Source: a virus
Strand: one strand, 5' to 3'
Virus record (IMG/VR): IMGVR_UViG_3300009159_000159
Location: 1 to 36,118 of that record
Length of the DNA: 36,118 nt
Shown here piece by piece: positions 4,537-30,513 of this stretch (position 1 is its first letter; every line of letters starts with the position of its first letter). The notes beneath the pieces are model-generated. The model saw only the letters and a list, made by a program, of their open reading frames with translations, ran no database searches and was not told the origin of the DNA. A program made the position numbers and the translations under genes.

Positions 4537-5457
4537 CTACAGCACCACCTTGAATAGTTTGGACTTCGAGCCTAGTGTCGAGAGACTGGTCATGCCGGGG
4601 ATGCCGTCAGCGTCCGTGCCGGTGTACCCGAGCCTCCGCTGCCACAAAGCATACCCTACTCGAACGGATTCGTCAAAAACATCCTGAACCCGGATACCAC
4701 GGGTGATACCAACGGCTCGAAGGCCCTTGGTCACCAGCAGCACATCCACGTCCTTGCCCTTTCGCCGTGCCGCCCGCTGAATGTTCGACAGGTCGACGAC
4801 CGAGTCGGGCTTGGGTACAGGCTTCGGAGGTACTGGCGGTTTAGGTGCAGGGGCATGCTTGGTCTCCCACATCTTCTGAGCGTTGGTCCGAAACACCGAG
4901 ATGTCGTAGAGGGTGTCGTTCTTCCGGCCTCGGGTCGGGTGGTAGTAGGACAGGCCCATCTCCGGGCCACCGTCAGTCCAGCCCTTGTGGTTGATCAGAT
5001 GGTTGAAGTTCTCCCAGTTCGAGACCTGACGCAGGGCACTGTCCATTCGTGCCGTCGAGTCGAACATCTCGTCGGTGAAGTCCTGCTTGGTCCCCCACGA
5101 CTCGTGCTCACGGCCCCAGAGCATCAGGTGGCCAAGATCCTTCGGCACGCCGTAAGCAGGCCACGGTCCACCCTTGCCAGAGTGCCAGCAGGACAAAGCG
5201 GACATAATAATCACCGAGCCGTCACGACGGACGACCTCGTTGCAGCACGGGTAGTTGTAGCCCTCGGAGCGACCGTCGCACCACTCGACCGCGCCGTCTC
5301 CGACACCTGAGATGTGATGCTCGACCGCGCCGCGAAGTCCGTACTCCCACGGACGACCACGGGTGTTCCACTCCCGATCAAAGGATACCTTATTGGCGGG
5401 CATCCAGTCAAGGATGGCCTCGCGGATCTGTGCCGGTGTCGGCTTGTTGATGGTCAC
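4537..5457 (-). CDS. Endolysin: N-acetylmuramoyl-L-alanine amidase with a C-terminal wall-binding domain
   Basis: 306 aa from a GTG at 5457, with GAGGAGG upstream and overlap with the stop of the small acidic gene before it. Residues about 40-175 look like a type 2 (PGRP-like) zinc amidase: VEHHISG (H47, H48), a GREHESWG segment, and a late HLINHKGWTDGG segment with further potential zinc and catalytic residues (H153, H157). These enzymes cut the bond between N-acetylmuramic acid and L-alanine. A Pro/Lys linker (about 202-217) follows. The C-terminus ends in a module with YALWQRRLGYTGTDADGIPG and SLSTLG that is also found at the end of the GH18 protein at 20885-22180, so it is probably the peptidoglycan-binding part. 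There is no signal peptide, so export depends on the holin next door. Confidence 0.85.
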   Translation of the reverse strand: MTINKPTPAQIREAILDWMPANKVSFDREWNTRGRPWEYGLRGAVEHHISGVGDGAVEWCDGRSEGYNYPCCNEVVRRDGSVIIMSALSCWHSGKGGPWPAYGVPKDLGHLMLWGREHESWGTKQDFTDEMFDSTARMDSALRQVSNWENFNHLINHKGWTDGGPEMGLSYYHPTRGRKNDTLYDISVFRTNAQKMWETKHAPAPKPPVPPKPVPKPDSVVDLSNIQRAARRKGKDVDVLLVTKGLRAVGITRGIRVQDVFDESVRVGYALWQRRLGYTGTDADGIPGMTSLSTLGSKSKLFKVVL

Positions 5458-5558
5458 ATTTCCTCCTCGAAGTGCGGGTGCGCGTCGGCCTCGGGAGCCT
5501 CAGCGCTTGCCGCGTCCTCAAGGGAGATCTCGGGGAAGTCCTGCTCGTCGTCGCCCAT
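5454..5558 (-). CDS. Very acidic 34-residue protein upstream of the endolysin
   Basis: 34 aa (MGDDEQDFPEISLEDAASAE then an Ala/Glu/Asp/His tail). It is strongly acidic and probably disordered. AGGAG lies 4 bases before the ATG, and its TGA overlaps the GTG of the endolysin, so the two are translationally coupled. It may exist mainly to couple or time endolysin translation, or may bind the basic endolysin; both are inference. Confidence 0.6.
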   Translation of the reverse strand: MGDDEQDFPEISLEDAASAEAPEADAHPHFEEEM

Positions 5559-5820
5559 ACCGCTCCTCAACTTGACAAAAAATATTTTTTGTGCTTACCC
5601 TTGTCGGGCTTGACATCTATTATTTTTTCTGCTAGAGCCAAGGGTACAGGATTTTTTCGCGACGAATTTTTTGCTCGCGCGGAGAAAGTGCGCCGCCTTT
5701 TCAGGCCCTTCTATAAACAACTCTATAGTATAACGATCCGTTCCACGCTCAAACCATATGTCAGATGTCAAGACTTGACAAATCTACATACTTCAATACA
5801 GCAGCCGCACAACTGCTCGA
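5559..5820. promoter_or_regulatory. AT-rich intergenic region with two palindromes upstream of the lysis genes
   Basis: No gene is supported here. It holds a perfect 18-base palindrome ACAAAAAATATTTTTTGT (5575-5592), a perfect 15-base palindrome TGTCAAGACTTGACA (5766-5780) that contains TTGACA on both strands, several T6 tracts (about 5624, 5652, 5667) and, on the minus strand, TTTGAG followed after 17 bases by TACTAT (about 5724-5752). It separates the WhiB gene (ends 5821) from the acidic gene/endolysin/holin unit, so it is the likely promoter and operator for the lysis unit. The 5766 palindrome is operator-like. Confidence 0.5.
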
Positions 5821-6150
5821 TCATCCTCGCACGACCCGTCTCAGCCTCAGCATCCTTCGACGGTCGTCCTCACTCACACCACCCCATGTGCCGTACGGCT
5901 CTTGGACTTTCATCGACCAGTCAAGGCATTCGCTGACGACTGGGCATACCTTGCAGATCGAGATCGCGACATTGGCTCGAATCCGTCTCTGCGCCAGAGG
6001 CTCATCCCACGGATGAAAGAACAACTCGGGGTCAATCCCCTCGTCACGGCAGGCTCCTCGCAACTGCCACTCCCAGTACTCAGCCGTCGTGCTGGGAAGA
6101 TCTATCCCTCCGTCGATATCCCTCTGTCGGCTCATCAGCCGCCCCGGCAT
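5821..6150 (-). CDS. whiB: WhiB-family iron-sulfur transcription regulator
   Basis: 109 aa. Four cysteines in the WhiB pattern (C34, then C66-x2-C69-x5-C75) bind a [4Fe-4S] cluster, followed by the beta-turn GTWGG (87-91) and a basic C-terminus (RRRMLRLRRVVRG) that contacts DNA. Wbl proteins are known only from actinobacteria and their phages, where they bind the sigma factor and alter host transcription; phage copies (WhiBTM4 type) have been linked to septation inhibition and superinfection exclusion. The gene overlaps the end of the frame at 6135-6437 by 16 bases. Two ATGs (6150 and 6135) are possible starts; neither has a strong ribosome binding site. Complete by length and motifs. Confidence 0.92.
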   Translation of the reverse strand: MPGRLMSRQRDIDGGIDLPSTTAEYWEWQLRGACRDEGIDPELFFHPWDEPLAQRRIRANVAISICKVCPVVSECLDWSMKVQEPYGTWGGVSEDDRRRMLRLRRVVRG

Positions 6151-7651: not shown

Positions 7652-9712
7652 ATGTTCTCCTTCCGCCTGACTGAAGACTTCGTCAACTCCTACCGCGACA
7701 TCACCCCTCCGTTCGGGTATCGCGACGCAGGCGGCAACTCAATCGGGGAGATCACGTTCCTCCGCACCTACAGCCGTCTAAAGTCTGATGGCTCCGGCAA
7801 GGAAACGTGGGTGGACGTGTGCGAGCGGGTCATCAACGGGATGTTCAGCATCCAGAAGGACTACTGCAAGACCAGTCGTCTGCCGTGGAACAACGCCAAG
7901 GCGCAGTCCAGCGCACAGGACGCCTTCGACCGTCTCTTCCACCTGAAGTGGTCACCGCCCGGTCGCGGGCTCTGGGTCATGGGAACCCCCATCGTCAACA
8001 TCCAGCGCAACTCAGCGGCTCTGCAGAACTGCTCGTTCGTCACGACCAAGGGCATGAGCAAGAACGATCCGGCTGCACCGTTCCGCTTCCTGATGGAAGC
8101 CTCGATGCTGGGAGTCGGCGTTGGCTTCGACACCAAGGGCGCGGAGAAGGGCTTCACCATCCACCGCCCCAGCGCCACAGAGACCGTCACCTACGAGATT
8201 CCAGACACCCGTGAGGGCTGGGTCGAGAGCATGGCCCTGCTGCTGAACTCGTACCTGCGTCCAGATCAGCCCACCTACCAGTTCGACTACTCTCTTGTCC
8301 GTCCGGAGGGTGCCCCCATCGCGACCTTCGGCGGCACTGCTGCCGGTCCCGGTCCGCTGATCCGTCTGCATGATCACATCCGGCGAATCTTTGACGGCAG
8401 AGAAGGCGAAGCCCTTTCTACGGTTGACATCGCTGACATCGGAAACACCATCGGAGTCTGCGTCGTCTCGGGCAACGTCCGTCGCAGCGCCGAACTCCTG
8501 ATGGGTTCCATTGACGATGACGACTTCCTGAACCTGAAGAACGCCGAGCGCTTCCCTGTCCGCAACTCCTACGACTCCGACAGCCCCGGCTGGGCATGGA
8601 TGTCGAACAACTCCGTCGATGTCTCGGTTGGCGATGACCTGTCAAAGGTTGTTCCCGGCATCGCGCTGAACGGTGAGCCCGGCGTCATCTGGATGGACGT
8701 GACTCGTCAGTACGGTCGGCTTGCGGATCCTGTCAACAACAAGGATTGGCGCGCATCTGGTTATAACCCCTGCGCTGAACAGCCCCTCGAAGGCGGCGTC
8801 AACGGTCAGGGCGAGATGTGTACTCTCGTCGAGACGTACCTCAACCGTCACGAATCTCTTGAGGACTACAAGAAGACGCTCAAGGTTGCCTATCTCTACG
8901 GCAAGACCGTCACCCTCCTCCCGACGCACTGGGAGGAGACGAACGCGATCATGCAGCGCAACCGCCGCATCGGTACCAGCATGTCCGGCATCGCCAACTT
9001 CGCTGATATTCACGGCCTCCCGACACTTCGCCAGTGGATGGACGAGGGCTACCAGACGATCCAGCGCTACGACACTGTCTACAGCGAGTGGCTGGGTGTC
9101 CGTGAGTCCATCAAGACGACGACCGTGAAGCCCTCCGGCACCGTCTCTATATTGGCAGGCGAGTCTCCCGGCGTTCACTGGACTCCCGGCGGCAAGTATT
9201 TCCTGCGCGCAATCAGATTCTCTAATGGAGATTCGATGCTTCCGCTGTTCCGCATGGCCGGATACACCGTTGATCCCGCGTCCGAGTCTCCTGATACAAC
9301 GTCCGTGGTGTTCTTCCCGATCAAGTCCGATGCCGAGCGCGCTGAGCGCGACGTGACGATCTTCGAGAAGGTCGCACTCGCGGCCACCGCTCAGCGTTAC
9401 TGGTCCGACAACTCAGTTTCCGTCACCATCTCATTCGACCCGGAGACCGAGAGCAAGCACGTCGGGACCGTCCTGCACATGTACGACGGTCAACTCAAGA
9501 CCGTCTCCTTCTTACCCTCCGGCAACTTCACTTACCCGCAGATGCCCTACACCCAGATCACCGAGGAGGAGTACAACGCCTACACGTTCCAACTCCTCCC
9601 CGTTCCGCTGGAGCCCGTCTATGAGGGCATGACTGCCGACGCCATCGGAGAGTCGTTCTGTACGACTGACGCATGCATCGTCAAGTTGGAGACTAAAACT
9701 CAACTAGCATGA
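7652..9712 (+). CDS. nrdJ: Class II adenosylcobalamin-dependent ribonucleoside-triphosphate reductase
   Basis: 686 aa. Reduces ribonucleotides (most likely triphosphates) to deoxyribonucleotides using a thiyl radical generated from adenosylcobalamin, so it works with or without oxygen but needs B12. Features of the monomeric Lactobacillus-type enzyme are visible: first redox Cys in LQNCSFV (C127), the SGNVRRSAEL segment, the radical-site motif NPCAEQ (C374, E376), its partner in GEMC (C390), and a C-terminal CxxxxC pair (C670, C675) with the spacing of the thioredoxin-accepting cysteines of L. leichmannii RTPR. Length is slightly shorter than that enzyme (about 740 aa). It has its own promoter; the next gene follows after 12 bases. 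With ThyX and dCMP deaminase it supplies DNA precursors for phage replication. Confidence 0.93.
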   Translation: MFSFRLTEDFVNSYRDITPPFGYRDAGGNSIGEITFLRTYSRLKSDGSGKETWVDVCERVINGMFSIQKDYCKTSRLPWNNAKAQSSAQDAFDRLFHLKWSPPGRGLWVMGTPIVNIQRNSAALQNCSFVTTKGMSKNDPAAPFRFLMEASMLGVGVGFDTKGAEKGFTIHRPSATETVTYEIPDTREGWVESMALLLNSYLRPDQPTYQFDYSLVRPEGAPIATFGGTAAGPGPLIRLHDHIRRIFDGREGEALSTVDIADIGNTIGVCVVSGNVRRSAELLMGSIDDDDFLNLKNAERFPVRNSYDSDSPGWAWMSNNSVDVSVGDDLSKVVPGIALNGEPGVIWMDVTRQYGRLADPVNNKDWRASGYNPCAEQPLEGGVNGQGEMCTLVETYLNRHESLEDYKKTLKVAYLYGKTVTLLPTHWEETNAIMQRNRRIGTSMSGIANFADIHGLPTLRQWMDEGYQTIQRYDTVYSEWLGVRESIKTTTVKPSGTVSILAGESPGVHWTPGGKYFLRAIRFSNGDSMLPLFRMAGYTVDPASESPDTTSVVFFPIKSDAERAERDVTIFEKVALAATAQRYWSDNSVSVTISFDPETESKHVGTVLHMYDGQLKTVSFLPSGNFTYPQMPYTQITEEEYNAYTFQLLPVPLEPVYEGMTADAIGESFCTTDACIVKLETKTQLA

Positions 9713-10085: not shown

Positions 10086-11006
10086 ATGCGTACTGATGAG
10101 ACCAAGACAGTAGTTGCCGTCCGAGGTATCCCCGGTTCCGGCAAGTCCCACTGGAGCAAGCAGCAGTTCGCCACGGCACCCTCCGGTGCTGTTGCGCGAA
10201 TCAATAACGACGACCTGTCAATGATGCTGTTCGGCTCCTCCTACATTGACGGTGGACAGGACACGGCCAACCTTCTGGCGTCCCTGAGAGCCAAGACTCT
10301 CTCCACTCTCCTCACCGCACCGTCTATACAGGCGATCATCATCGACAACACGAACCTGTCCGTGAAGTCTTTGCGTGCGCTGGAAAACATCACCAACCAG
10401 CACGGTGCTAACTTCTACGTTCACGACGAGTTTCTCACTACCCCGCTCGAACTCTGCCTCAGCCGCAACGCGGCCAGAGAGATCCCAGTTCCAGAGTCCG
10501 TCATCGTTGACATGCACAGGACGGCTCAGACGCTAAAGCCGTGGGCCTACGCGATCACTCCCAAGATCACTCCTCATGAATACAACTCATCACTGCCACC
10601 CGTCATCATCTTTGACATTGATGGCACCCTCGCGCACAAGCATCCCGACAGAGACATCTACGACGGATCACTCGCGCATCTGGATCATCCAGACCCGACG
10701 CTCATCCCTCTTGCGAATCTGCTGTCGATCAGTTACGGAATCATCGTGATGACTGGTAGGTCCGAGGAGCATCGCGATGTTACGCAGACATGGCTCGATA
10801 CTCACATTCAGCCGGGGTTGCCTTTGTTGATGCGTAGGTCCGGCGACTTTCGTTCGGACTGGATTGTGAAGTACGAGTTGTTCGATGAGCACATCCGAGA
10901 CAGGTACCATGTCATGGCAGTATTCGATGACCGCGATCAGGTAGTGAACCTGTGGCGCAACCGGCTCGGTATCCCGACGTATCAAGTAGCAGAAGGAAAC
11001 TTCTAA
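10086..11006 (+). CDS. pnk: Bifunctional polynucleotide kinase / 3'-phosphatase (T4 Pnk type)
   Basis: 306 aa, close to the 301 aa of T4 PseT and with the same order. N-terminal kinase: P-loop GIPGSGKS (14-21) and a following INNDDL (D42, D43) where T4 Pnk has its catalytic Asp. C-terminal HAD-type phosphatase: FDIDGTLAHK (nucleophile D177, D179), IVMTGRSEEHR, a basic segment RSGDFRSDWIVKYE and the late FDDRDQ acid pair. It would phosphorylate 5'-OH ends and remove 3' or 2',3'-cyclic phosphates, healing RNA or DNA breaks; in T4 it works with an RNA ligase against tRNA-cleaving defences. No ligase is visible in this window. No Shine-Dalgarno sequence; candidate leaderless start. The TAA overlaps the next ATG (TAATG). 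Confidence 0.9.
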   Translation: MRTDETKTVVAVRGIPGSGKSHWSKQQFATAPSGAVARINNDDLSMMLFGSSYIDGGQDTANLLASLRAKTLSTLLTAPSIQAIIIDNTNLSVKSLRALENITNQHGANFYVHDEFLTTPLELCLSRNAAREIPVPESVIVDMHRTAQTLKPWAYAITPKITPHEYNSSLPPVIIFDIDGTLAHKHPDRDIYDGSLAHLDHPDPTLIPLANLLSISYGIIVMTGRSEEHRDVTQTWLDTHIQPGLPLLMRRSGDFRSDWIVKYELFDEHIRDRYHVMAVFDDRDQVVNLWRNRLGIPTYQVAEGNF

Positions 11007-20884: not shown

Positions 20885-22180
20885 ATGATGTCGTTCAAGA
20901 TCAGTGCATGGGTTCCCTACTGGCAGCATGATGCAGCCATCACCACTGCGGAACAGAACAAGGACATCGTCGGCGATCTGTTGCTGTTCAACTGGGAGTG
21001 CCACTCTGACTGCTCGGTCAAGTCTCTCTGGTACGACCCGGTTCCGGTAGACCGCCTCAAGAAGGGCGGCTTCTCCTACTGGGTGACGTTCGTATCCGCC
21101 ATGAACGGTGCTGCTGCTGCAGACATCTTCGGCAACACAACCAAGTCGAAGACCCTGATCAAGAACATGATCTCTGTCGCCAAGCAGACTGGCGCTATCG
21201 GCCTCGACCTCGACTTCGAGTCAATCAACTTTGGACATTCTGGTGACTCGCACGCTCGGCTCACAGTCAACTACCCGAAGTTTGTCGCTCTGCTCAAGCA
21301 GACAGCCGGAACGCTCAAGGTCTCTGTCACAGTTCCCGCTCGCATCTCCGACTCGATTCCTGACTGGTCTTGCTACGACTACAAGGAACTAGGCGCAGCC
21401 TGCGACCTAATCCGGATCATGGCATACGACGATCACTGGTCTGGTGGCCCTGCTGGTCCCGTTGCCGACATTCGCTGGGGTCGCAAGGTCATGCTCTACT
21501 CCAAGAGCAAGGTGCCTGCTGGTAAGACATCATTCGGCATCCCTGCCTACGGATACGACTGGCCTCTAGTAGGAAATGGCAAGACCATTGCAGCCCGTCA
21601 GGCTGACGCACTTGCTGCCAAGAACGGTACTAAGGTCTCTTATCAGTCTCTGACCACATGTGAAGGAACGTTCTCATACAGCGGTCGCACCGTGTGGGTT
21701 GCCACTTCTGCCGGTATGGCGAAGCGCGCATCAGAAGCCAAGGCTCAAGGATTCGAGAGCATCTGCATCTGGTCCCTCGGAGACCAGCCCGGAGACGCCT
21801 TCGCTCAGATTCGGAAGGCAATTGGAACCTCGGCTCCCAGTCCGACGCCAACACCAACCCCAACCCCAACTCCTAAGCCTCCGACACCTACCCCCATCCC
21901 AACCCCAACTCCTAAGCCTCCGCTGAAGCCTGCGGCGTCTCTGGCTGCTGCTCAGCCGGGCAAGAAGAACAACTCCGTTCTTCTGGTCCAGAAGGCTTTG
22001 CATCAAGCAGTTGGCCTTGACTACTCTTCCGGTCCGGGTACGTTCGGCCCGAAGACGAAGGCTGCATACGCTCAGTGGCAGAAGTCGCTCGGGTATAAGG
22101 GATCAGCCGCCGATGGAATCCCCGGTCAGGTTTCCCTCAAGGCGCTCGGTGACAAGTACGGATTCAGAGTCATCAAGTGA
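20885..22180 (+). CDS. GH18-family glycosidase with Pro/Thr linker and wall-binding domain
   Basis: 431 aa (the second ATG at 20888 is better placed after AGAGG). Residues about 5-320 form a GH18 TIM barrel of the YaaH type: strand 4 is IGLDLDFES with the DxDxE motif (D108, D110, acid E112), followed by IRIMAYDDHWSGGPAGPV (substrate-binding Tyr/Asp) and the C-terminal SICIWSLGDQ Trp. Members cleave chitin or peptidoglycan-type beta-1,4-linked GlcNAc. A Pro-Thr linker (about 322-350) leads to a C-terminal module with AYAQWQKSLGYKGSAADGIPG and SLKALG, shared with the endolysin. No signal peptide, so it is either released by the holin as a second lysin or carried on the virion. Confidence 0.8.
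   Translation: MMSFKISAWVPYWQHDAAITTAEQNKDIVGDLLLFNWECHSDCSVKSLWYDPVPVDRLKKGGFSYWVTFVSAMNGAAAADIFGNTTKSKTLIKNMISVAKQTGAIGLDLDFESINFGHSGDSHARLTVNYPKFVALLKQTAGTLKVSVTVPARISDSIPDWSCYDYKELGAACDLIRIMAYDDHWSGGPAGPVADIRWGRKVMLYSKSKVPAGKTSFGIPAYGYDWPLVGNGKTIAARQADALAAKNGTKVSYQSLTTCEGTFSYSGRTVWVATSAGMAKRASEAKAQGFESICIWSLGDQPGDAFAQIRKAIGTSAPSPTPTPTPTPTPKPPTPTPIPTPTPKPPLKPAASLAAAQPGKKNNSVLLVQKALHQAVGLDYSSGPGTFGPKTKAAYAQWQKSLGYKGSAADGIPGQVSLKALGDKYGFRVIK
21860..21922 (+). repeat. 24-base direct repeat in the GH18 linker
   Basis: The 24 bases at 21860-21883 are repeated exactly at 21899-21922, 39 bases apart, within the Pro/Thr-coding linker. It encodes repeated PTPTPKPP units and probably arose by slippage, allowing linker length to vary. 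Confidence 0.7.
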
Positions 22181-22928: not shown

Positions 22929-22949
22929 TTGACTCCTCGCGTGTGCGTG

Positions 22950-22976
22950 AAGGGCCGGGTATTTCACCCGGCCCTT
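22950..22976 (+). terminator. Strong hairpin terminator between the HTH gene and terL
   Basis: AAGGGCCGGGT pairs perfectly with ACCCGGCCCTT (11 bp, 5-base loop ATTTC), followed by TCGCATTACTTT. The U tract is short and interrupted, as is common in actinobacteria. It begins 21 bases after the stop of the HTH gene. Confidence 0.75.
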
Positions 22977-22987
22977 TCGCATTACTT

Positions 22988-22993
22988 TATAGT
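22988..22993 (+). promoter_or_regulatory. Candidate leaderless -10 box (TATAGT) for terL
   Basis: TATAGT ends 6 bases before the terL ATG at 23000 and lies just after the terminator hairpin. No ribosome binding site is present. The -35 region is not recognisable because the terminator occupies it. Confidence 0.4.
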
Positions 22994-22999
22994 AGTGTC

Positions 23000-24418
23000 A
23001 TGGGCAAGAGCATCATGGAGCAACTGGCACTGCTTCCGCCAGAGGAGCAGCATGCTGTCCTGAGGGACATCGACCCGGAACTTTTAGTCTGGGACTGGAA
23101 GTTGTGGGCACGACCAGAACAACTCCCACCTGACGATGACTCGTGGAACATCTTCCTGTTCCTCGCTGGTCGCGGTGCTGGAAAGACTCGCTCTGCAGCC
23201 GAGTGGGTTCGGGACATGGCAAAGAGAACCAACGAGGGCCAGTTGCGATTCGCGCTGGTTGCTCGTACTGCCGCTGACGTACGAGATGTCATCGTTGAAG
23301 GCGAGAGCGGAATCATCAACGTCACACCTCCAAGCGAGCGTCCTCTCTATGAGCCGTCAAAACGACGCCTCACATGGCCAAACGGAAATATGGCAACCTG
23401 CTTCACCGCTGATGAGCCAGACTCACTTCGTGGTATTCAGGCTCACTACTCATGGGCAGACGAGTTGGCAGCATGGAGGCAGACTCCAGATGCTGCAGGA
23501 ATGACATCGTGGGACAACCTTCGAGTCGCTACCCGTCTAGGAACTGACCCGCAGATTCTGGCCACCACTACTCCCAAGCGCGTGAAGATCCTTTACGACC
23601 TCATTGAAGAAGCAAAGAGAACTGGAAAGGTTGTCATCACGCGAGGCTCAACAATGGACAACGCGGGCAACCTGTCAGGCGCATACATCGAAGCAATTAC
23701 CGGAGTGTACGGCGGAACTCGACTCGCAGCACAAGAACTCTACGGAGAGATGCTGACAGATGTTGAAGGTGCCCTGTGGACACTGGAGATGATCGAGGAA
23801 GGGCGACAGGGTGCGCTTCCTGTTGGCACTCCACTTCGATGTATTGGTGTGGACCCATCTGTGGCAGAGAATCCACGAGACGAGTGCGGAATCATTGTCT
23901 GTGCCTCCACTGCTGAGAGTGACATGTACAAGAGGCACGCTTGGATCCTTGAAGATGCATCAATTCATGGCTCGCCAGAAGTATGGGCGAACAAGGTTGT
24001 AGAGATGGCGAGGAAGTGGGCATGTCCGGTCATTGCTGAGGTGAACCAAGGCGGTGCGCTTGTTCGAAATGCCATTAACTCCATTGACCCGAATATCAAG
24101 GTGCTAGAGGTTCACTCGAAGCACGGCAAGGCACTTCGAGCAGAGCCTGTAGTGCTGTCATACGAGCAGCATCGTGTTCATCACGTTGGGATTCTCGGTG
24201 ACCTTGAGACGCAGATGACTCAGTGGATTCCCGGCGAAGGCAAGTCACCAGACCGAGTCGATGCTCTTGTGCATGCACTGACTGCTCTGATGATCAAGCC
24301 TCCGCCCGGATTCGTCGGAGGGCGTCTGAAAGCCAAGTCTTACTCAGACCGTAGGCTTCCGATTGATCGTGGAGGAGCAAGGGGTGGTGGCGGGGGAGGA
24401 AAGGTGTTCTTCCGATAG
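23000..24418 (+). CDS. terL: Terminase large subunit
   Basis: 472 aa. The packaging motor: an N-terminal ATPase and a C-terminal nuclease that cuts concatemeric DNA. Walker A is AGRGAGKTRS (about 56-65), Walker B with the catalytic Glu is SWADEL (about 154), and a coupling motif of the TTTPK type (LATTTPKRVK) follows. The nuclease part has IGVDPSVAENPRDE (metal Asp), VIAEVNQGG and a late DRVDALVHALTAL (metal Asp). The start at 23000 is preferred to the longer frame at 22943 because the extension is the terminator region. The C-terminus is Gly-rich (RGGARGGGGGG). It converges with the helicase gene, leaving 10 bases between stops. Confidence 0.93.
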   Translation: MGKSIMEQLALLPPEEQHAVLRDIDPELLVWDWKLWARPEQLPPDDDSWNIFLFLAGRGAGKTRSAAEWVRDMAKRTNEGQLRFALVARTAADVRDVIVEGESGIINVTPPSERPLYEPSKRRLTWPNGNMATCFTADEPDSLRGIQAHYSWADELAAWRQTPDAAGMTSWDNLRVATRLGTDPQILATTTPKRVKILYDLIEEAKRTGKVVITRGSTMDNAGNLSGAYIEAITGVYGGTRLAAQELYGEMLTDVEGALWTLEMIEEGRQGALPVGTPLRCIGVDPSVAENPRDECGIIVCASTAESDMYKRHAWILEDASIHGSPEVWANKVVEMARKWACPVIAEVNQGGALVRNAINSIDPNIKVLEVHSKHGKALRAEPVVLSYEQHRVHHVGILGDLETQMTQWIPGEGKSPDRVDALVHALTALMIKPPPGFVGGRLKAKSYSDRRLPIDRGGARGGGGGGKVFFR

Positions 24419-27970: not shown

Positions 27971-28255
27971 ATGGCTCTTGCTGAGAAGTTTCTGGAAGTC
28001 CATCCCACGACCTTTGGCCTGCCATGCGGAATCGCCAAGGTATCTGATCAGATGTCAGCAGATGACTACGATGCACTTATTCAAGTGATGGATGTTCCAT
28101 CGGGCAACCCTCGGCGTCTATCAAATCGTAAGATCCACGAGATCTTGATCTCTGAGGGTCACAGCGTTTCATTCTCCTCGATCTCGCTGCACCGTCGCAA
28201 GGTGTGCCGTTGTTTCACTGGAAAGAACGTAGCAGACACGGCCAAGAAGAAATGA
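27971..28255 (+). CDS. HTH DNA-binding protein upstream of the metallophosphoesterase
   Basis: 94 aa. FGLPCGIAKVSDQMSADDYD then PRRLSNRKIHEILISEGHSV, and FSSISLHRRKVCRCF: a helix-turn-helix of the type used to choose between DNA sites (RLSNRKIHEIL, SISLHRRKV), with a CRC pair. AAGGAGACCT lies 4 bases upstream of the ATG. Its TGA overlaps the ATG of the next gene (ATGA), so the two are expressed together, probably in DNA metabolism. The 175 bases before it hold no gene. Confidence 0.65.
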   Translation: MALAEKFLEVHPTTFGLPCGIAKVSDQMSADDYDALIQVMDVPSGNPRRLSNRKIHEILISEGHSVSFSSISLHRRKVCRCFTGKNVADTAKKK

Positions 28256-30513
28256 GCATCTCTGAGCGGGTAGAAGAACTCCTTGCATCGACTCCTAGCA
28301 GTGGGACTCGCGGAACTAGGATTCGTCCCTCTCATCCGACCGGATGGGAGCCGGGCATCAAATGGGATGGCCGGGACGAAGCCACGATTACCACAGACCT
28401 ATGTCCAAAGATGTCTAGTGAGGATGACTGGCGACAGGCTGTTGAGGACATCGGACTGACACTTCCTCCCGGCTGGGTGATCTATCCAGTAGAGGCTCGG
28501 TACGACGAGGCTGCATGGACTCGTGAGAACGAGGGAGAGGATGCAGTCACTCGTCCAGTATGGCGATACAAGTTCCGTATCCAACAGGCCGCTGGCTCCC
28601 GAGTCGACGTTGAGGAATTGATCGCTGTCATAGCGAAGCACAAGGCTCGGAAAAAGAATGACGAGCAGCAAGTAGTAGACCATACATGGGTACTTGCCAC
28701 AGGTGATTGGCAATTAGGCAAAGCCTTGAGCGATGACACTCCCGTGCTGACTACTGATGGATGGAAAGCCCACGGTGATATCGAACCGGGAGACTATGTC
28801 TTTGGCCCAGATGGCCAGCCCAAGAAAGTTCTTGCAGTCACAGGGTCCACGATGCAGGACTGCTATCGAGTCGAGTTTGATAAAGACATCTCGATTGTGG
28901 CAAGTAAGGATCATCTATGGTCGGGGTACCGTCGCGAGAAGATTCGCACTGGAAAGCGTGGGTACGCGGGTTATCACCGTGTACCAACAATGCTCACTAC
29001 CGAAGAACTTGCAGCAATCAAGACTGCTGCGTACCGCCGACCAGAAACTAAGCCGACTCAACTACAAGGCTTTCATGTTGATGTAGCAAACACGCTCTCT
29101 TTACCCATACAGGAAGACCTTGCCGTAGACCCTTATACGTTAGGACTATGGCTCGGCGATGGATCGTCTGCGACAGGTCTCATCACCGGACATCGAGATG
29201 ACATGGAGCACTATTCTGACCTAGGCCATATTTTACCCAAGGCATCATCAGCAAACACGTTGCTTCTCAGAGTACCTAGGCTCACTACAGCACTGAAGGC
29301 AGCAGGACTTCTACACAACAAGCATGTCCCTGATGAGTATTTATATTCGTCAGTAGACCAGCGGCTTGCGTTACTGCAGGGTTTAATGGATACGGATGGG
29401 ACTGTCTCTAAAACTGGTGGTCTTTGCTCGTTCACGAACACTAGAGAGTCAATTGCTCAGGCGGTGTACTGGTTGGCTACTAGTCTTGGTCTTAAGCCTT
29501 CTGTGCATCGTCGAACAACGGCTCTGTATGGCGTACGCAAAAAAGATGCATGGGTCGTAAACTTCACTGCTACAAAAGCCGACCGAGTATTCCGTCTACC
29601 ACGCAAGATTGAGAGGCTTCCTGAAAGTCGTACTCGTCAGGATGCTTGCTACCGTTACGTTCAGAACGTAGTTCCGATTGGTCCAGTCAGTGCCCAGTGC
29701 CTAACAGTTGAAGGTCATCTATATTTGGCCGGAAGCGATCTTGTTGTGACACACAACTGCGACGGAGACGGATCAGAGGGCACAGTACAGAGGATTCTTG
29801 AGTCCACTGATCGAGCGGTAGATCGTATTCGTGAGATGAAGCGGCTCAAGCGTTGGCCCGGAGCAGCCTGTCTTGCTCTTACTGGAGACTGCGTAGAAGG
29901 ATTCGTTTCGCAGGGTGGTGCCAATATCTGGCGTACCAACTTGACGATGACCGAGCAGGTTCGTCTGTACCGTCGTCTAGTCATGCAAATGACCACGACG
30001 CTAGCCAAAGAGGTCGACTCTCTTCTCGTTACTGCGGTTCCGGGCAACCACGGAGAAACAGTTCGAATCGGTGGAAAGATGGCGACTCGTATTGATGACT
30101 CATGGGATCTTGACTCAGTTGCTGCAGTAGCAGAGGCTCTTTTGATGAATCCTGATGCGTACGGTCACGTTGGGTTCCATTTACCGCAGGCAGATGAAGG
30201 TGAAGTTGTTCTCGATCTCCACGGCACAGTCACTGCTATTGCTCACGGTCATCAGGTTCCTCGTGGAGATGTTTCCAAGTGGGTTGCTGAACACGCGAGG
30301 AACATGACTGCAGTAGGGGATGCACGGCTGATCATCACTGGACATCATCATCACTTGGTGATCAAGGCTATGGGTCCACGATCTTGGATTCAGGTTCCAG
30401 CGATGGAGTCCGAGTCCACATGGTGGAAGCACCGCACCGGAGAAATCTCAGCCCCCGGAATGGTGAGCCTGCTGACAGGTGACGGACACTGGTCCGATCT
30501 TGCTGTCCTTTGA
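28252..30513 (+). CDS. Calcineurin-like metallophosphoesterase precursor interrupted by an intein
   Basis: 753 aa precursor; 408 aa after splicing. The mature protein has a phosphoesterase plan: GDWQLGK directly before the intein joins CDGDG after it to give the first metal motif (GDxQxGKxDG), then LTGDCVEGF, VPGNHGE, AHGHQVPRG and GHHHHL, the usual D-x-H, GD, GNH-E, H and GHxH set with Gln in place of His in motif 1. Phage members hydrolyse phosphodiesters in nucleic acids or nucleotides. Start at 28252 is coupled to the preceding HTH gene (ATGA). Without splicing the active site would be split, so expression requires the intein to work. The C-terminal part (WIQVPAMESESTWWKH) is conserved-looking. 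The specific substrate is unknown. Confidence 0.85.
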   Translation: MSISERVEELLASTPSSGTRGTRIRPSHPTGWEPGIKWDGRDEATITTDLCPKMSSEDDWRQAVEDIGLTLPPGWVIYPVEARYDEAAWTRENEGEDAVTRPVWRYKFRIQQAAGSRVDVEELIAVIAKHKARKKNDEQQVVDHTWVLATGDWQLGKALSDDTPVLTTDGWKAHGDIEPGDYVFGPDGQPKKVLAVTGSTMQDCYRVEFDKDISIVASKDHLWSGYRREKIRTGKRGYAGYHRVPTMLTTEELAAIKTAAYRRPETKPTQLQGFHVDVANTLSLPIQEDLAVDPYTLGLWLGDGSSATGLITGHRDDMEHYSDLGHILPKASSANTLLLRVPRLTTALKAAGLLHNKHVPDEYLYSSVDQRLALLQGLMDTDGTVSKTGGLCSFTNTRESIAQAVYWLATSLGLKPSVHRRTTALYGVRKKDAWVVNFTATKADRVFRLPRKIERLPESRTRQDACYRYVQNVVPIGPVSAQCLTVEGHLYLAGSDLVVTHNCDGDGSEGTVQRILESTDRAVDRIREMKRLKRWPGAACLALTGDCVEGFVSQGGANIWRTNLTMTEQVRLYRRLVMQMTTTLAKEVDSLLVTAVPGNHGETVRIGGKMATRIDDSWDLDSVAAVAEALLMNPDAYGHVGFHLPQADEGEVVLDLHGTVTAIAHGHQVPRGDVSKWVAEHARNMTAVGDARLIITGHHHHLVIKAMGPRSWIQVPAMESESTWWKHRTGEISAPGMVSLLTGDGHWSDLAVL
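28723..29757 (+). other. Intein (class 3-like) with LAGLIDADG homing endonuclease
   Basis: Codons 158-502 of the metallophosphoesterase, 345 aa. The N-terminal splice block starts with Ala, not Cys/Ser/Thr (ALSDDTPVLTTDGWKAHGDI), and the C-terminal block is VVTHN followed by Cys. Block B is VASKDHLW with W66, block F is AQCLTVEGHLYLAG with C326, and block G has T343 before HN: this Trp/Cys/Thr set is the hallmark of class 3 inteins, which use the internal Cys instead of residue 1. Two dodecapeptide motifs, LGLWLGDG (about 141) and LLQGLMDTDG (about 213), show a DOD homing endonuclease. Bases are visibly AT-richer than the flanking exteins, consistent with transfer. It lies in the metal-binding site, a typical intein position. 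Confidence 0.9.

Follow-up and report, generated by a model that had tools for sequence, protein, structure and literature searches.

A class 3-type intein with a predicted LAGLIDADG homing endonuclease at motif I of an MRE11-like phosphoesterase in an uncultivated actinophage

Inteins of mycobacteriophage TerL have been found to splice, and they also cut alleles that lack the intein (Kelley et al., 2016; PMC5050341). The inteins of LittleE TerL and ScoobyDoobyDoo gp195, a RecB-like exonuclease (PMC5050341), are 35-37% identical to the intein reported here and resemble it in length, in the layout of a HINT domain with a LAGLIDADG endonuclease, in an Ala at position 1, in the Trp-Cys-Thr set and in the THN end, while the proteins that harbour them are P-loop ATPases or RecB-like nucleases; Thr stands at +1 in each of the five phage inteins that were read, as against Cys here. 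The DnaB class 3 intein of Brevibacterium phage Rousseau, the strongest full-length match by E-value from a cultured phage among the matches listed (2e-50), has the same GK| N-terminal flank, but it occupies the Walker A site of a DnaB helicase and is followed by Thr+1. The closest tested precedent for Cys+1 is the Bvi IcmO intein, a class 3 intein and published exception to Ser/Thr+1, in which Cys F:4 is essential (Tori and Perler, 2016; PMC5222942); unlike ours, it is a mini-intein of 142 aa without endonuclease, in a plasmid IcmO protein. In the mycobacteriophage recombination directionality factor (RDF) Bethlehem gp51, too, an intein lies next to a conserved motif of a calcineurin-like metallophosphoesterase domain (PMC5050341), a likeness at the level of the motif; that intein is of class 1, with a penultimate Gly. 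The extein family of our intein is PHROG 284, 'MRE11 double-strand break endo/exonuclease', of Streptomyces, Mycobacterium, Cutibacterium and Gordonia phages, which has the metal motifs in common with it, including DxQ in motif I; in contrast to our gene, no same-site intein was found in the PHROG 284 proteins of cultured phages.

The window, that is, the whole stretch of DNA analysed here, is a viral record of 36,118 bases, in which the start of the precursor gene overlaps the stop of a small upstream ORF (27971-28255). Codons 158-502 of the precursor form a block of 345 residues that starts with ALSDDTPVL, ends with VVTHN and is followed by Cys (Table 1). The first-pass annotation had proposed an in-frame insertion of this length, beginning with Ala, ending in HN|C and parting GDWQLGK from CDGDG, and translation reproduces it to the residue; W66, C326 and T343 also lie where they had been placed, and H64 and the two LAGLIDADG motifs with both catalytic Asp residues are present. 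Conservation of W66, C326 and T343 in relatives had been named as a check, and all three, as well as H64 and N345, show no variation across 45 aligned sequences of related inteins. A point against is that in block B, S61 takes the place of the commonest residue, Asp; Ser or Thr stands there in 15 of 89 inteins.

Pfam matches within the block are to LAGLIDADG_3 and Hom_end. A tblastn search of the 345 residues against 50,697 phage records gave 755 matching records, 719 of which were covered to at least 80%, all at less than 60% identity; the best were class 3 inteins of TerL, DnaB and RecB-like proteins, at about 35% identity. Related inteins in viral contigs are up to about 43% identical; no close kin was found in viral contigs with the exact intein sequence, and no relative in a scan of genome contigs with the same-site alignment. 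The intein alignments extend over the full length (1-345) and stop exactly at the predicted junctions. One match, to ScoobyDoobyDoo gp195, reached into the N-extein and was taken as chance; near the junction only K is common, and the protein is RecB-like. Among solved structures, the mycobacterial DnaB intein 6bs8, of class 3, gives the best match by sequence (E 7e-15). The AlphaFold2 model of the intein (mean pLDDT 93.2, pTM 0.91) has a HINT fold and matches PI-SceI (E 5e-21), the class 3 DnaB inteins 6bs8 and 6rix/6riy, and 1ef0. As judged from homology and from the model, the insert is an intein with the class 3 signature and an intact predicted LAGLIDADG homing endonuclease, lying, as the first-pass annotation had held, in the metal site (motif I) of a calcineurin-like phosphoesterase.

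Table 1. Coordinates of the precursor gene, its exteins and the predicted functional residues of the intein in the window.
Feature	Position	Strand	Basis
Whole precursor gene, 753 aa, MRE11-like calcineurin phosphoesterase with intein	28252..30513	+	phrog_284, E 2.3e-61
N-extein, 157 aa, C-terminal end is motif I GDWQLGK	28252..28722	+	aligns with intein-free homologues up to GK
Motif I GDWQLGK, metal-ligand D152, also of GxxxxGK form	28702..28722	+	alignment
Class 3 intein, 345 aa, HINT splicing domain and LAGLIDADG endonuclease (predicted)	28723..29757	+	homology, alignment, model
Intein residue 1, Ala, no first-residue nucleophile	28723..28725	+	translation
Block B H64-L65-W66 (His B:10, Trp B:12)	28912..28920	+	H64, W66 invariant
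LAGLIDADG motif 1 YTLGLWLGDG, catalytic D146	29134..29163	+	sequence
LAGLIDADG motif 2 LLQGLMDTDG, catalytic D225	29371..29400	+	LAGLIDADG_3 (PF14528), E 5e-8
C326, block F:4, predicted initiating nucleophile	29698..29700	+	invariant
T343-H344-N345, end of block G (Thr G:5)	29749..29757	+	T343, N345 invariant; H344 nearly so
Cys+1, first C-extein residue, predicted second nucleophile, unusual for class 3	29758..29760	+	alignment
C-extein, 251 aa	29758..30510	+	72-74% identical to syntenic intein-free copies
Motif II GDCVE	29884..29898	+	G200, D201, E204 invariant
Motif III GNH	30043..30051	+	N254, H255 invariant
HGH metal motif	30244..30252	+	H320, G321, H322 invariant
GHxH metal motif	30340..30351	+	H353, H355 invariant

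Removal of the intein leaves joined exteins of 408 aa, which match PHROG 284 'exonuclease' (E 1.9e-65), annotated in actinophages as an MRE11-type endo/exonuclease, and which contain all the phosphoesterase motifs (D-x-[HQ], GDxxE, GNH, HGH and GHxH). In motif I, the usual His is replaced by Q154, and D152 and Q154 are both invariant across the family. By its motifs and fold the host protein is an MRE11-like calcineurin phosphoesterase and a predicted nuclease, the nuclease function being deduced from the PHROG 284 annotation and the fold. The structure model of an intein-free relative (L018; mean pLDDT 75) matches PolD DP1 and Mre11, and the insertion point falls in its loop between the strand entering motif I and the next helix.

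Because the syntenic phosphoesterase of Actinomycetia phage DSL-LC01 is only about 25% identical, L017-L025 were chosen for the empty-site comparison. The gene is present without intein in the phages of L018, L021 and L023; synteny was checked in L018 and G005 (the L023 contig), where a primase, an HTH gene and a downstream tail-like gene flank the phosphoesterase as in the window. The joined exteins align straight through GDWQLGK|C with intein-free homologues, including syntenic copies that are 60-65% identical, and the junction in intein-free homologues reads, for example, GDWQLGK|IDGDG, GDTQFGK|TDGDG or SDWQIGK|ADGDG. The predicted sequence across the extein joint of the spliced product is GDWQLGKCDGDG. 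Since D152 is on the N-extein and all the other ligand motifs are on the C-extein, it is likely that the phosphoesterase would be active only after splicing.

We consider it very probable that this class 3 intein is a selfish element with its own homing endonuclease, placed in the beta1-alpha1 loop at the active site of an MRE11-like phage exonuclease, and that it splices, homes and has reached at least three phages. The layout of the element, its homology, the precise point of insertion, the conserved catalytic residues, the same-site sisters and the conflict between intein and extein trees were computed, and from these we infer splicing, the order of its steps, endonuclease activity and homing. 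After translation, C326, activated by H64 and T343 and packed by W66, would attack the K157-A1 bond and take the N-extein as a branched thioester; the N-extein would then be transferred to Cys+1, cyclization of N345 would release the intein, and an S-to-N shift would yield the 408-aa enzyme, in which motif I is whole (...GDWQLGK-CDGDG...). In the DNA, alleles free of the intein would be cut by the endonuclease at the same site, repair would copy the intein in, and homing of this kind may have brought one intein lineage to at least three phages whose copies of the gene are divergent.

Same-site carriers were sought in viral contigs with a DNA pattern for THN[nucleophile]DGDG. Four of the six matches were chance hits in short or unrelated frames; the other matches led to two further carriers, both uncultivated and distantly related phages. 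The intein of L179 (331 aa, Ser+1) has both LAGLIDADG acids, while that of L182/L185 (339 aa, Ser+1) has lost both and kept all the splicing residues, as would be expected if splicing is needed and homing dispensable. No same-site intein was found in the 50,697 cultured phage records; the 'exonuclease' Frankenweenie gp79, considered as a possible case, was rejected, as it is annotated as a Cas4 exonuclease.

In a tree of 89 inteins, the three same-site inteins form one clade (support 100/98), whose nearest larger group is joined to it with weak support (67/92). In the 77-row extein tree, in contrast, the carriers stand apart, with at least three changes forced by well-supported branches, and the window and L179 adjoin close intein-free genes. 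Because the inteins form one clade while the exteins do not, the intein would most likely have moved between phages, though not recently. The recent transfer that the first-pass annotation had read from an AT-richer base composition did not hold up: the GC content of the intein is 0.500 (6th percentile of the window) as against 0.546 and 0.538 in the exteins, the difference at third positions (-0.059) is not significant (codon permutation p = 0.11), and the three inteins are mutually only 38-46% identical, on long branches.

An intein ancestral to the gene family, inherited vertically and lost many times instead of spreading between phages, would also leave three carriers scattered across the extein tree and inteins as old and diverged as these. 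We regard this as improbable, considering that three carriers among hundreds of homologues would require very many precise losses, and that the inteins of the window and L179 are more alike than their exteins (45.5% as against 35.2% identity), which vertical descent does not predict. Movement between phages remains the preferred reading, although not for every pair: transfer between L179 and L185 is not indicated, because identity is lower between their inteins (37.6%) than between their exteins (43.8%).

The phosphoesterase of L185 (IMGVR_UViG_3300020233_000057) contains a second intein, at 5162-6025, of class 1 type (Cys1 ... Gly-Asn|Cys) and sited in motif II (GDLVEQ|C), so that two metal motifs of one enzyme are split by inteins of different classes; the second intein can be aligned over its whole length, at 22-24%, with ribonucleotide reductase genes of three phages. 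In the helicase-like protein on the contig of L185 (L287), a class 3 intein follows GLGK, another intein of Cys1 type follows VDE, and there is an apparent start of a third.

Position +1, a point on which the first-pass annotation was silent, is occupied by a nucleophile in all three carriers (Ser in the two sisters, Cys in the window). In 130 non-redundant intein-free homologues, the same position holds Gly (55), Arg (16), Ala (15), Ser (10), Ile (9), Val (8), Pro (6), Leu (5), Thr (3), Glu (2) or Lys (1), that is, Ser or Thr in 13 and Cys in none. If the carriers were independent, a nucleophile in all three would be expected by chance with a probability of about 0.001, a figure to be taken as a guide, since they are not fully so. 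The pattern is what selection for splicing would be predicted to leave. The frequency of Cys+1 in class 3 was taken from an enlarged sample of 151 inteins, in which +1 is Ser in 81, Thr in 67, Cys in 2 and Ala in 1; the intein of the window thus departs from the usual, though not obligatory, Ser/Thr+1 (148 of 151), and the second Cys+1 case is the terminase intein L323.

The rarity of Cys+1 in class 3, combined with Ala1, would fit class 2-like splicing, in which the N-terminal nucleophile is missing and the +1 residue attacks the N-terminal junction directly (PMC5222942), so that C326 would be dispensable. We give this very little credence: the full Trp-Cys-Thr set is specific to class 3 and invariant in relatives, and the sister inteins carry Ser+1. 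Equally improbable is a dead or cleavage-only intein, leaving a broken gene or a retained domain: the intein is known here from an uncultivated contig, and one class 3 intein is a known pseudogene (PMC3196547), but the open frame is unbroken, none of the splicing residues and neither of the endonuclease acids is missing, the metal motifs of the phosphoesterase are all conserved, which would be unexpected for a useless product, and a nucleophile is the rule at +1 only in genes that have the intein. In no homologue does the segment occur as an ordinary domain, whereas such an occurrence would, by the criterion of the first-pass annotation, have refuted the intein.

A terminase intein in another viral contig (L340, IMGVR_UViG_2740892466_000001) combines the Trp-Cys-Thr set with an apparent Cys at residue 1 and Ala+1 (PPFH|CAEV...THN|AKSA); its removal would restore PPFHAKSA, yet Ala is unable to serve as second nucleophile.

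As to the origin of a class 3 intein at this site, Gly-Lys precedes the intein in 107 of 148 cases sampled, many of which are terminases, and this is consistent with insertion at the P-loop of an ATPase. GDWQLGK is not a P-loop, though it has the GxxxxGK form of one, and the joined protein contains only two GK pairs; an intein may plausibly have jumped from a P-loop gene to this look-alike. It may be tentatively suggested, as a scenario that we hold to be possible but on balance doubtful, that a class 3 lineage specialized for P-loops (GxxxxGK|S/T) jumped to the Walker A-like motif I and went on from phage to phage as a site-specific family, and that in the phage of the window the second nucleophile was switched from Ser to Cys. 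If so, the switch would be a natural test of the tolerance of class 3 for Cys+1 and of its border with class 2. The contig of the L179 phage (33 kb; L285, L286) carries three class 3 inteins, all after GK, in the phosphoesterase, in a DnaB-like helicase (GTGK|..HN|S) and in a RecA-like protein (QAGK|..HN|T).

A literature search returned no earlier report of a class 3 intein in an MRE11-like phage phosphoesterase. The intein type is known, and the splicing mechanism is not new; the host protein and the insertion site look new within the collections searched, which are large but not exhaustive. The suggestion of a new insertion point in the first-pass annotation agrees with the absence of same-site inteins from the cultured phage records, while its description of class 3 inteins as rare needs correction, 1701 having been counted in 2020 (PMC7891396). 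MRE11-like phage nucleases and one insertion point are thereby added to the hosts of class 3 inteins. Three carriers, many intein-free alleles and one decayed endonuclease make up a compact system for the study of the homing cycle and of transfer across phages, and Ser, Ser and Cys at +1 within one site-specific clade are natural variants that bear on why class 3 avoids Cys+1.

The assignment of the window to an actinophage was borne out by its TerL and primase, which are 77% and 75% identical to those of DSL-LC01, and the host is probably to be sought among freshwater actinobacteria. The kin of the phage are the lake actinophage DSL-LC01 and large Microbacterium phages. Among the other genes of the window, 7652-9712 codes for a B12-dependent ribonucleotide reductase, 10086-11006 for a polynucleotide kinase and 20885-22180 for a glycosyl hydrolase 18/endolysin-like protein. 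Its TerL (22943-24418) is a single uninterrupted frame; the TerL relatives of Microbacterium phages align to it in two pieces across about 2.2 kb, which suggests that the TerL genes of those phages may hold inserts.
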